Source: Desulfobacterales bacterium (GTDB lineage: Bacteria > Desulfobacterota > Desulfobacteria > Desulfobacterales > UBA5852). Taken from it: a stretch of 22,655 nucleotides of DNA. Every line of letters begins with the position of its first letter. Positions within the stretch are counted from its first letter, which is position 1. The translations under genes were made by a program, and so were the position numbers. The stretch is from positions 1-22,655 of the forward strand of contig JASJBQ010000020.1 in the NCBI GenBank assembly GCA_030066455.1, in the 5' to 3' direction. The notes beneath the pieces are model-generated. The model was not told the DNA's origin. It saw only the letters and a program-made list of their open reading frames with translations, and ran no database searches. Below, piece by piece: positions 1 through 3,363 of the stretch.

Positions 1-30
1 GTCCGGGCCCGCGGCAGAATAGCGGCCGGT

Positions 31-717
31 ATGGGTTTCATGACCCCGGACCACCGCGCCGTCCACCATTTTGCCGTGCGTGAACTCCCACGCCACGGCC
101 GTCCCCTGCCCCCCGCAACCATCGCCGCCGGACTGGCACTGCCCGAACGACGGGTGGTTTCTCTTCTGGCCGATCTCGAAGCCCGCATGACTTTTCTCTT
201 CCGCAATCCGGCCGGTGAAGTCATCTGGGCCTATCCGCTGACGGTGGAGACCACGCCGCATGCGATGACCTTCAGCACGGGCGAAAGGCTCCATGCCGCC
301 TGAGCGGTGGACGCTTTCGCGACGCCCTTCGTGCAGGGGCGACTGAGAAAAGAAAATCTGGCGGTCACGGTCGATTCCCAATGCGCCCAAAGCGGGCGGT
401 CCATGCAAATCGAAATCGACAGCGACCTGAGCTACAACGTCCGGGATGAGGGCTGCCGCCCTGTCGTGTTCGTGCCCGACATCAAGCGCTCCGAACTGGA
501 GGCGCCGAGCATCATCGACGACTTCTGAAAGGAAAGTGTCTTCTTCTGGTCAGAAGAACATGCCCGCCGCTATCGCCGCACAACGCACCGCCGGCGGGGC
601 GCCTATTTCACCGCCGACCACACCGTCTATCTCACGCGCATCATGCAGAGTGCGCTGTTCGGCTTCGACCAGGCGGCGACAGCGCCGAAAAAGATATGCG
701 GCTCACCATCGCCTTGA
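31..717 (+). CDS. MerB-family (alkylmercury lyase-like) selenoprotein with two predicted selenocysteines
   Basis: Read through two in-frame TGA codons (301-303 and 526-528), this frame encodes one 228-residue protein, close to MerB's usual size of about 212. Residues 1-90 resemble the MerB N-terminal helical domain. The first TGA (residue 91) falls in LHAA-U-AVD, matching MerB Cys96-Ala-Leu-Asp99, with Asp94 exactly three residues on. Cys118 matches the structural Cys117 region (SQCAQSG versus SHCAATG). The second TGA (residue 166) falls in DDF-U-KESVFFWSEEHA, matching the Cys159 segment before FFAS. MerB uses these two Cys and the Asp to cleave carbon-mercury bonds. There is no other stop or frameshift, and translation ends at TGA 715-717. 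Each TGA is followed by a SECIS-like hairpin. The frame is open to the window edge, so the start (ATG 31 or 40) is uncertain. The 3' end overlaps the convergent methyltransferase gene by 15 bp. The alternative is a pseudogene, which I judge unlikely. Confidence 0.88.
323..341 (+). promoter_or_regulatory. Putative bacterial SECIS element 1 (for TGA 301-303)
   Basis: A 7-bp stem (323-329 with 335-341, one G-U pair) closes a 5-nt loop, CGTGC. The loop begins 26 nt after the in-frame TGA and has G as its second base. This fits the bacterial SECIS model: a short stem downstream of UGA, an apical loop with G in the first two positions, and roughly 16-37 nt of spacing. It lies inside coding sequence, as expected for bacteria, where SelB binds the loop. 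It is a visual prediction; no folding was run. Confidence 0.7.
541..558 (+). promoter_or_regulatory. Putative bacterial SECIS element 2 (for TGA 526-528)
   Basis: A perfect 7-bp stem, TTCTTCT (541-547) with AGAAGAA (552-558), closes the 4-nt loop GGTC. The loop starts 19 nt after the second in-frame TGA and begins with two G residues. Stem length, loop G and spacing all fit the bacterial SECIS model, and the stem is unusually clean for this GC-rich region. SelB recognition is inferred. Confidence 0.78.
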
Positions 718-1188
718 CGGCCGCCAGCGGGGCAGAAACCGACCGGTACGCGCGGCATATTCCCGATAGGCCGCGCCGAAGACGGCCTCCATCATCTTCT
801 CCTCCCGCGGCACCAGGCGGTGCCAGAGAAGGTGCAGCCCAACGGGACCGGCGAGCATGATCCACGAGTTGCTCGCCAGCACGGTCCCGCCGGCGAGCAG
901 CGTGATCCAGGCCGTGTACATGGGGTGACGCACGAAACGGAACGGGCCCCGGGTGCACAGGCGGTCGTGGCGCCACCAGTTGCGCAGCGTCACGAAAGAC
1001 CAGACATGCAGCCCGGCACCGGAAAGAATGAGCACCAGGGCGGCGGCGTATCGCAGATCCGCACGGGCCGTGACGGCGGGCCGGCCGGCCAGCCCGTCGA
1101 ACCACCACAACAGGGCCAGCAGCAACAGGCTGAGCAGCGCACCTGACGGGCCGACGCCGAAGATCTTCTGAAAAGCGGAGATGTTCAT
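703..1188 (-). CDS. Isoprenylcysteine carboxyl methyltransferase (ICMT)/PEMT-type membrane methyltransferase
   Basis: This encodes a 161-residue integral membrane protein. Hydrophobic segments lie at about residues 15-32, 48-66 and 92-122. The family signature RHPMY is at 87-91, followed by a Glu-Glu pair at 129-130 (PREEKMMEAVFG) and the C-terminal YREYAARTGRFLP. These features are typical of SAM-dependent ICMT-like/phospholipid N-methyltransferase proteins; the natural acceptor cannot be told. I chose the ATG at 1188 because it overlaps the TGA of the upstream hydrolase as ATGA (1188-1185), a classic coupling signal. A longer frame reaches back to 1272, but its extra residues are basic, lie inside the hydrolase gene and look like shadow sequence. 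The gene is convergent with the MerB-like gene and overlaps its end by 15 bp. Confidence 0.85.
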   Translation of the reverse strand: MNISAFQKIFGVGPSGALLSLLLLALLWWFDGLAGRPAVTARADLRYAAALVLILSGAGLHVWSFVTLRNWWRHDRLCTRGPFRFVRHPMYTAWITLLAGGTVLASNSWIMLAGPVGLHLLWHRLVPREEKMMEAVFGAAYREYAARTGRFLPRWRPSRRW

Positions 1189-2120
1189 CTGGCGCTGGCC
1201 GATCCCGGGCAAATGCTTTCTCCGCCGCTCAACGCGTTGTCGTGTCCGTGGCGCTTCATTGTCGCCACCCATGCTGCGACCCGGTCGGCGATGGGCCCCG
1301 AATGCTGCACCCAGCCGAAATGATCCAGGCCTTCGGTCTCCAGTTCGCCGGGTTGCACATGCCAGCGTGTGAGCGGGGCGTCGGGAAACTTGCGGCAGAG
1401 GTTGTCCACGGCCCGGGGTGGGGCGAACCCGTCGCCGGCAATCGACACCGCCAGGACCGGTCGGCGCAGGGATGCCAGGCAGGCTTCGAAATCATGCGGG
1501 CTGTTGGTCAGGTCATAGCGTCCGGTACGGGCGTTGCGGGCCCAGTCCCGGATCACCGTACGGGCGGCCGTGCCCCCGAATCCGATGCGCCGCCCCGGGA
1601 AATAGCCCAGCAGCACCGCCAGGGCCAAAGCCGCTTGGGTTCCCAGCCAGATGCCATAGTTGCCCGGGAAGCGCCAGCCCCGATAGCAAACCGAGCAGGA
1701 GGCCACGAGCACGAGACCCTCAACCTTTTCCGGATGAAGGCTGGTGTAGAGCACATTCAATTGACCGCCCAGACTGTGGCCCAGCAGAAAGGTGGGGTTG
1801 CCCGGAAACCGATCCTGCACGGCCGCCACGACGGCAGGCCAGTCGTGGGTCAGCATGTCGTGGTAGCCGAAATCCGTGCCACGGCCGACCCGCACCGAAC
1901 TCGCTCCCAACCCGCGCAGATCCGCCGTTACGGCATTAAGTCCGTTGCGGCACAGATTCAGCGCCAGCGGCTCGTAAAAAGCGGCCCGCACCCCCATGGC
2001 CGGCATGCAGATGGCCACCGGCGCCGCGGCATCAACCCAAAAAACCGTTAGCGCCGAGTGGGTACCGTCCAGCATCCGAATGGGATGCGCTGAGATGTCA
2101 GGGGGCATCGCGCTTCTCAT
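1185..2120 (-). CDS. Alpha/beta hydrolase
   Basis: This is a 311-residue alpha/beta-hydrolase-fold protein. The nucleophile elbow is GHSLGG with Ser116, the acid is probably Asp230 (SIAGDGF), and the catalytic histidine is His267 (LDHFGW). It resembles the uncharacterised COG4757-type hydrolases, so the substrate is unknown. No signal peptide is evident and it is probably cytoplasmic. It forms a two-gene unit with the ICMT-type methyltransferase, whose ATG overlaps this stop codon. The start could be ATG 2120 or ATG 2108. Just upstream of ATG 2120, GCGGCC (2125-2130) and GGCCGC (2140-2145) can form a hairpin that would bury the weak AAGG ribosome site; whether this matters is unknown. Confidence 0.88.
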   Translation of the reverse strand: MRSAMPPDISAHPIRMLDGTHSALTVFWVDAAAPVAICMPAMGVRAAFYEPLALNLCRNGLNAVTADLRGLGASSVRVGRGTDFGYHDMLTHDWPAVVAAVQDRFPGNPTFLLGHSLGGQLNVLYTSLHPEKVEGLVLVASCSVCYRGWRFPGNYGIWLGTQAALALAVLLGYFPGRRIGFGGTAARTVIRDWARNARTGRYDLTNSPHDFEACLASLRRPVLAVSIAGDGFAPPRAVDNLCRKFPDAPLTRWHVQPGELETEGLDHFGWVQHSGPIADRVAAWVATMKRHGHDNALSGGESICPGSASAR

Positions 2121-2292
2121 GCTGGCGGCCTTAACTTTCGGCCGCCTCTTCGTGGTGAATTAGAAAACGCCCTGCGGCCGGCATCGACTGGCAAGGGTTC
2201 ACCTGGCCGTGTTTTCAACGCCTGCTGAAATCTAAAGCCGACCATTCCGGGAAGGGTATTTCCCGCCGCGCCCGATCGTTTGGTTGCCGTTC
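2121..2292. other. Intergenic spacer between hydrolase and EamA transporter
   Basis: This 172-bp gap holds the 6-bp hairpin described under the hydrolase. It also holds a small GGGAA/TTCCC dyad near 2249-2264, downstream of the transporter on the minus strand, without a T-run. I see no gene and no convincing promoter or terminator. Confidence 0.4.
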
Positions 2293-3363
2293 TCAGTCGT
2301 TGTCATGCCCGTCGTTGGAATGACGATGCCGGTGGTGCAGATCGGGCCAATGCCCGTGGGTGTGCTCGGCGGCGTCATGTTCATGCCAGTGGGAGTGATT
2401 GGCGCCGCGCGGCGCATTGCCATGATCGTGCGCGTGGTGGTCATCGTCGTGGGCGTGGTCGTGCCGATGTGCAACCGCATCGTGGCGGTGGGCATGCTGA
2501 TGTTGTTCACGAAATAGAATCACGAGGGAGGCGACAATGATCATGGCCGCCAGCGCCTGCATGCCCGTAAAAGGTTCATCCAGGATTGACACCGCGAACA
2601 GCAGACCGAAAAAGGGGGCCGTCGAGAAAATCATCTGGCTGCGTGAGGCTCCGAGGCCCTGCGCCGCCGAGATGTACAGGGTGACACTCAAACCATAGGC
2701 CAGGGCGCCTACGAGCAGCGCGCTCAAAACGAGGCCGGGGCTGCCGATGCCGCCGGCCAGCACGCCGCCCATGACCAGATTGAACCCACCCGCCGCCGCC
2801 CCTTTCCACAAGGTTGTCTGGGCGGGCGTGATACCGTCAATCAGGGCGGTGAGATGGTTGTCGACGCCCCAGCAGATGCATGCGCCGGCCACGAGCAGGA
2901 CCGCCGGCAGACCGGGATCGCCTTCGGCACCGACCAGCAGCACCGCGGCCACGAGTGTCCCGCCGGCCGCAATCCACCCGCGCAGCGTCATGTATTCGCG
3001 GAATACGAAATGCCCCAGCAGCACCGTCGCCACGAATTCGAGATTGAGCCACAGGGAAACCGAACCGGCACTGGCCCGCTGCAGGCCGAGCAACAGCAGC
3101 ATCGGCCCGACGACCCCGCCCAGCAAGATGGCGCCGCCGAGCAAAAGGAAGGTGGATCGATCCATCCGCCATGGCCTCCGCCCGGGTTTCGGCCAGGCAG
3201 CTGCCGGCAGCACCCCCAGGACCGCCCCGAGGTAGAGCAGGCCGGCGAGTACCTGGGCCGGCAGATCGACCAGCAGCAGCTTGCTGGCCGGCGTGGCGAC
3301 CCCGAAAAGCAGGGCGGATAACAGCCCGGTCAGAAATAGCTTGGTGTTACGGTGCGCTGGCAT
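2293..3363 (-). CDS. EamA/DMT-family transporter with histidine-rich C-terminal tail
   Basis: This is a 356-residue protein. Residues 1-284 form the usual ten-helix drug/metabolite transporter pair of EamA repeats, starting LTGLLSALLFGVATPASKLLL and including the late helix-end SRSQMIFSTAPFFGLLFAV. Residues 285-356 form a hydrophilic tail with 24 histidines among Asp and Glu (for example HRHDHAHDDDHH and HSHWHEHD), which plain EamA proteins lack. The tail probably binds Zn, Ni, Co or similar ions, either as a sensor or as part of metal export; this is an inference. The shadow of the tail on the plus strand is rich in Met and Val codons, so the His codon choice is CAT/CAC throughout. The gene lies between the hydrolase and the secreted-protein gene in the same direction, with gaps of 172 and 72 bp. 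Confidence 0.87.
   Translation of the reverse strand: MPAHRNTKLFLTGLLSALLFGVATPASKLLLVDLPAQVLAGLLYLGAVLGVLPAAAWPKPGRRPWRMDRSTFLLLGGAILLGGVVGPMLLLLGLQRASAGSVSLWLNLEFVATVLLGHFVFREYMTLRGWIAAGGTLVAAVLLVGAEGDPGLPAVLLVAGACICWGVDNHLTALIDGITPAQTTLWKGAAAGGFNLVMGGVLAGGIGSPGLVLSALLVGALAYGLSVTLYISAAQGLGASRSQMIFSTAPFFGLLFAVSILDEPFTGMQALAAMIIVASLVILFREQHQHAHRHDAVAHRHDHAHDDDHHAHDHGNAPRGANHSHWHEHDAAEHTHGHWPDLHHRHRHSNDGHDND

Follow-up and report, generated by a model that had tools for sequence, protein, structure and literature searches.

Can a reading frame that carries stop codons at its catalytic positions still encode a working enzyme? The question is raised by the first 717 bases of a contig from a Desulfobacterales bacterium (GenBank JASJBQ010000020.1; the whole stretch analysed, 22,655 nucleotides, is called the window), in which a gene resembling the organomercurial lyase MerB is interrupted by two TGA codons. 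We consider it probable, judging from the sequence comparisons set out below, that window 1-717 encodes a MerB-family protein in which the TGAs at both catalytic-Cys positions are likely read as selenocysteine (Sec), and which is predicted to be a lyase of organomercurials or related organometals that grips the metal with two selenolates.

Translation of the forward strand yields a single MerB-like frame from window base 1 to a terminating TGA at 715-717 (coding part 1-714), whose sole interruptions are the TGAs at 301-303 (site 1) and 526-528 (site 2), both predicted to specify Sec. The sequence-only reading of this DNA had described a frame at 31-717 with just two TGAs, at codons 91 and 166; this description of the TGAs stands, and we retain its codon numbers, but the start has to be given up, as the ATG at 31 encodes an internal Met. 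The genes of relatives extend about 25 codons further in the 5' direction than window base 1; the window edge therefore truncates the gene, which lacks about 25 codons at its 5' end. In an alignment with MerB structures (PDB 3f2g and 1s6l, residue numbers counted from the printed chain coordinates), codons 91, 94 (310-312), 118 (382-384) and 166 correspond to Cys96, Asp99, Cys117 and Cys159, in agreement with the earlier placement of the TGAs at the Cys96 and Cys159 columns, with Asp three residues after the first. With Cys written for the TGAs, the protein scores 53.4 bits against the Pfam MerB family PF03243 (gathering cut-off 27), and its AlphaFold model has the full MerB fold, which makes it a member of the MerB superfamily. 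The canonical residues Asp99 and Cys117 thus have equivalents, and the two catalytic Cys residues are represented by TGA.

Relatives were collected by a scan of species genomes, which gave five loci, and by two phylum-wide profile searches. Among 395 genomes of the phylum of G001, 20 matched at E<=1e-6; 15 of them contain clear members (E<=1.4e-61), each with exactly two TGAs and no other stop, and the remaining five matches comprise a SaoL protein (L026), three stop-free MerB relatives (L027, L028, L030) and a C-terminal fragment (L029). In the phylum of G005, 10 of 400 genomes searched had matches, with four clear members carrying two TGAs each and seven weaker, stop-free matches in six genomes. 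The window, L002-L004 and the clear members of both searches make up 23 distinct loci, from the phyla of a Desulfobacterales metagenome-assembled genome (MAG) and a Chloroflexi MAG, to which we refer as the window's family; the Desulfobacterales MAG locus L001 is 78.5% identical to the first 2.1 kb of the window. TGA occupies both columns in 23 of 23 loci, internal TAA or TAG is never found, the equivalents of Asp99 and Cys117 are invariant, and the genes themselves terminate in TGA (11), TAA (7) or TAG (5). In all 253 pairs, and for the segments before, between and after the TGAs alike, the proportion of synonymous differences exceeds that of nonsynonymous ones (pS > pN), indicating purifying selection. 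The family thus displays in-frame TGAs conserved at Cys columns of homologues, a pattern expected of bacterial selenoproteins. Two findings that the sequence-only reading had named as fatal to it, homologues without Cys or Sec at these columns and disabling mutations in relatives, are both absent from the 23 loci. The fragment mentioned above (L029/L066, in G338) is a C-terminal relic of the window's family that starts just after site 2, and no upstream part was found in 14 kb.

Protein databases carry the window's family mostly as cut-off or apparently mistranslated pieces. Among 138 homologues (120 listed of 203 matches, plus 18 new among 42 from 7997 scored candidates), 105 terminate at the residue directly preceding site 1, bearing out the earlier expectation that annotation splits the gene. 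Another 27 (P0002-P0021 and others; 24 of them from a JGI source) have Trp at both sites. Three entries (P0025, P0029, P0037) carry Cys at site 1 and stop immediately ahead of site 2; one with Trp at site 1 also breaks off before site 2, and a further one combines Ser at site 1 with an unrelated ending. The three Cys-containing entries are apparently Cys/Sec forms within the window's family. Homologues with Cys at both sites had been anticipated; there is one such protein (P0139), distant at 30% identity, and no close Cys/Cys member of the family among the 138 listed. The Trp copies are best explained as a translation of short contigs with genetic code 4, as judged from the proteins, not from DNA, and other selenoproteins may hide in protein sets translated in this way.

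These data bear on two explanations that would do without Sec. A genome-wide reading of TGA as Trp or another residue would suit the 27 homologues with two Trp residues here, of which 24 stem from the JGI source; we hold this reading to be extremely improbable and have rejected it, as TGA terminates 12 of 19 other chosen window genes and 11 of the 23 family genes, and the columns in question are Cys in MerB. The notion that the TGAs are nonsense mutations in a pseudogene, or sequencing errors, has the relic in G338 as its sole point in favour; it is given next to no credence here and was likewise discarded, because all 23 loci carry the TGAs at these two columns, with no exchange for TAA or TAG, and segments under purifying selection flank each of them on either side.

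If the TGAs encode Sec, each should be followed by a selenocysteine insertion sequence (SECIS) element. As expected, a hairpin with frozen third codon bases, such as a SECIS element would have, is predicted behind each TGA on the forward strand. Hairpin 1 (323-341), whose core (325-339) begins 21 bases after the first TGA, has the stem arms GCCCUU/AAGGGC, and comprises Pro, Phe, Val and Gly codons with frozen third bases. Hairpin 2 (536-563), of the type UUCUUCU-GGUC-AGAAGAA, has a core (541-558) that begins 12 bases after the second TGA, and exposes GGUC, a typical bacterial SECIS loop, at its apex. Codon choice at conserved residues is frozen (p<0.001 relative to family usage) in four of nine columns after the first TGA and five of 11 after the second, as compared to four of 68 elsewhere, and all nine frozen columns after the TGAs fall inside the hairpins. 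The closing pair of hairpin 2 changes from U-A to C-G in five of the 23 sequences, together with an exchange of Trp for Arg, and the observed value for cells changed on both sides was reached in one of 500 shuffles. It is by conservation and frozen codons, not by folding energy, that these hairpins are SECIS-like; Rfam gave no match in window 1-2500. The presence of Sec machinery, which the sequence-only reading had proposed as a check and whose absence it had likewise named as fatal, was assessed in the genomes of 22 relatives: selB lies above its curated cut-off in 18 of these 22 carriers and in 30 of 40 non-carriers (p 0.75), tRNA-Sec, under strict filters, exceeds 65 bits in at least 16 of 22, and among the matches listed only G002 has neither.

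How would such a protein work? We infer its lyase chemistry by analogy with MerB, in which Cys96, Asp99 and Cys159 are essential according to PMC8261052 (this and most other papers named below are cited from excerpts of their text). SelB would read each hairpin as a SECIS element, the first selenolate would attack the metal of R-Hg (or of another R-metal) and the second would bind it, and Asp would protonate the leaving carbon as it does in MerB. Selenium may have been chosen for faster carbon-mercury cleavage combined with a tight hold on the metal; selones are described as cleaving Hg-C bonds faster than their sulfur analogues (excerpt of PMC11639659). The product would be released to cell thiols or selenide and not to MerA, because 21 of the 22 carrier genomes lack MerA above the curated cut-off. 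For MerB, removal of the product by thiols has been computed (excerpt of PMC4525700).

A PF03243 search of the 22 carriers revealed six more double-TGA loci, in five genomes, and one Cys/TGA locus, L065. A profile of the former, termed here family B, gave 47 matches in 39 of the 395 genomes of the phylum of G001; 26 of these matches (E<=7.9e-83, in 22 genomes) have exactly two TGAs each, and the remaining 21, weaker or broken, contain at most one. In the 13 distinct family B loci (L059-L064, L072-L078) both TGAs occur at the same motifs as in the window's family and a GGUC hairpin follows the second, and in all 13 the position three residues after site 1 is Glu, not Asp. In the tree, the window's family together with three members with Cys at site 1 (Shimodaira-Hasegawa-like approximate likelihood ratio test, SH-aLRT, 98) and family B (100) form separate clades. 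Deep branches are weak and several are long; site 1 requires four changes on this tree, and therefore two origins of Sec there are likely. The protein of the Cys/TGA gene (L065:6625-7449) is MerB-like; its site 1 is Cys, and the TGA at site 2 is followed by a GGUC hairpin. On the same G005 contig, hgcA is found at a distance of about 35 kb.

We found hgcA in 116 of the 395 genomes at E<=1e-60, 113 of them over the cut-off. Within this phylum family B is carried by 22 genomes, 18 of which have hgcA (vs 98 of the 373 others, p 2e-7), and the window's family by 15, nine of which have it (vs 107 of 380, p 0.017). For phylogenetic control we used an rpoB tree of 78 genomes (92 chosen, 12 dropped, and G317 and G372, both with family B, without an rpoB match; in the row of G199, 16 stops were masked as X). 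In 12 independent pairs differing in family B, hgcA changes in parallel in a mean of 7.9 and in the opposite direction in none (median p 0.008, range 0.002-0.063), and the link of family B with hgcA is therefore good after this control. For 10 pairs differing in the window's family, the corresponding numbers are 2.2 in parallel and 1.6 opposite (median p 1), and after removal of the family B genomes the count drops to four of 10 (p 0.49). A link of the window's family by itself with hgcA, which a first convenience set had suggested (10 of 22 vs three of 40, p 0.0008), is thus unsupported and was rejected.

The surroundings of the gene were read by eye from lists of open reading frames (ORFs) of 22 loci, some on short contigs and the window without its upstream side; two MarR and two MerR neighbours were annotated with profiles. 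Apart from close kin (in the window, L001 and L002 the adjacent gene is alpha/beta-hydrolase-like), these loci have no conserved operon. ABC ATPases and kinases, both general families, recur at varying distances. A MarR-type regulator lies just upstream in four of 22 loci (L045-L048, two confirmed by Pfam), and a MerR-type regulator flanks the gene in three (L043, L051, L054, two confirmed by Pfam); it is possible that these are inducer-sensing partners. Near the MerB-like gene, window 2293-3363 on the reverse strand encodes a protein that resembles a membrane transporter (EamA-like by eye) and whose C-terminal tail is very rich in His.

Several observations weigh against a double-Sec organomercurial lyase. 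Folded as single sequences, the window hairpins do no better than their shuffled counterparts (z -0.49 and -0.97). Changes on both sides of a pair are not in excess in hairpin 1 among the 23 loci; in hairpin 2 they are confined to one pair, and shuffling yields more of the further pair types than are observed. Carriers show no enrichment of selB, which does not set them apart from non-carriers. The window protein stays below the curated MerB models (51 of 193 bits for NF009710, 48.2 of 200 for NF033555), MerA exceeds its cut-off in only one of the 22 carrier genomes, which are mostly MAGs, and no mer, sao or hgcAB genes, hence no mer operon, were recognised among the listed ORFs, in which no search with sao models was made. 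To these can be added the failure of the window's family to follow hgcA on its own. Finally, the release of a tightly bound metal without MerA is the weak point of the mechanism proposed above, and tight Hg-selenolate binding could block turnover.

Some of these points would agree with a MerB-fold protein that uses its two Sec residues to trap Hg(II), methylmercury or another soft metal(loid) permanently, with no turnover. The missing MerA in 21 of 22 genomes, which leaves nothing to take the product, and the Glu of the related family B at the Asp position (13 of 13 loci) would suit such a trap, and PMC8261052, in the excerpt used, describes retention of Hg(II) by MerB and an altered metal affinity of 99Ser variants; however, the proton-donor Asp and both metal-ligand positions are invariant in 23 of 23 loci, which fits catalysis better, and we consider the trap rather unlikely. 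A somewhat better case, though still a doubtful one, can be made for a double-Sec lyase acting on another organometal(loid), such as methylated arsenic, tin, selenium or tellurium. It is a sub-case of the organometal lyase that we favour, so that the two likelihoods overlap. The lack of recognised mer genes around the gene, the lack of an independent hgcA link and the wider metal range suggested for MerB variants (excerpt of PMC8261052) speak for it, but every catalytic column of the mercury enzyme is kept and no recognised neighbour points to another metal.

These findings may bear on the way in which anaerobic sediment bacteria destroy methylmercury. As a tentative extension of the organometal-lyase reading, both double-Sec families could be overlooked methylmercury lyases of anaerobes, with family B acting alongside HgcAB in mercury methylators and breaking or recycling the methylmercury that they make. 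Family B would have gone unnoticed because Cys at positions 96 and 159 was a requirement of the surveys, and because gene prediction ends at TGA. A 2021 survey screened MerB by signatures of Cys96, Asp99, Cys159 and Cys117, which TGA-containing genes would escape, and states that HgcAB is absent from all genomes with MerB alone (PMC8261052). It seems that an enzyme which would probably split carbon-metal bonds has been overlooked so far.

With which known proteins, then, can the window protein be compared? In NCBIfam it matches only three MerB-type models. It resembles MerB (R831b type; PDB 3f0o, 3f2f) in the whole fold, in the equivalents of Asp99 and Cys117 and in having two chalcogen ligands at the Cys96 and Cys159 columns, but differs from it in that both of these are predicted Sec, at about 22% identity, in that no mer operon was recognised among the listed ORFs, and in that MerA stays below the cut-off in 21 of 22 genomes. 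PDB 5c17 we take to be MerB2 of Bacillus megaterium. The MerB2 and other 99Ser variants have Ser in place of Asp99, as exemplified by this species (excerpt of PMC8261052), whereas the window's family keeps Asp. SaoL (NF040728), the MerB-like organometallic lyase of the SAO selenoprotein operon, has in L026 (174.7 bits, cut-off 140) a Cys at the Cys96 column and, for Sec, a TGA at that of Cys159. Against the same model the window protein reaches 34.9 of the required 140 bits, and it has two predicted Sec, as against the one reported for SaoL (Table 1 of PMC13188914). The link of MerB-like lyases to selenoprotein-rich cassettes, mentioned in the sequence-only reading, fits SaoL of the SAO operon, which has a single Sec.

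SaoL, with its one Sec, is the only MerB-like entry among the 119 families in Table 1 of the 2026 selenoprotein catalogue (PMC13188914). In the literature searched, partly as excerpts, we found only SaoL-type mentions and no double-Sec MerB, in keeping with the earlier suspicion that such a form had not been described, with the proviso that Haft and Gwadz 2023 or Haft and Tolstoy 2025 might mention one; a term search of PMC12013277 for MerB, mercury and lyase gave no mention. Family B shares with the window's family the TGAs at the two catalytic columns and the GGUC hairpin that follows the second of them, and differs from it in forming a separate, distant clade, in having Glu for Asp and in being tied to hgcA. 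Double selenoproteins are few in the 2026 catalogue, though some listed there are metal-binding; MbdU (NF045648) and the UxxU protein (NF041115), which belong to other family models than the window protein, have two Sec each and are thought to bind metal (excerpt of PMC13188914). The window's predicted double-Sec protein seems to be an undescribed variant of MerB-like proteins and, if the prediction is true, would represent an unusual enzyme with two Sec residues as its metal-binding pair.
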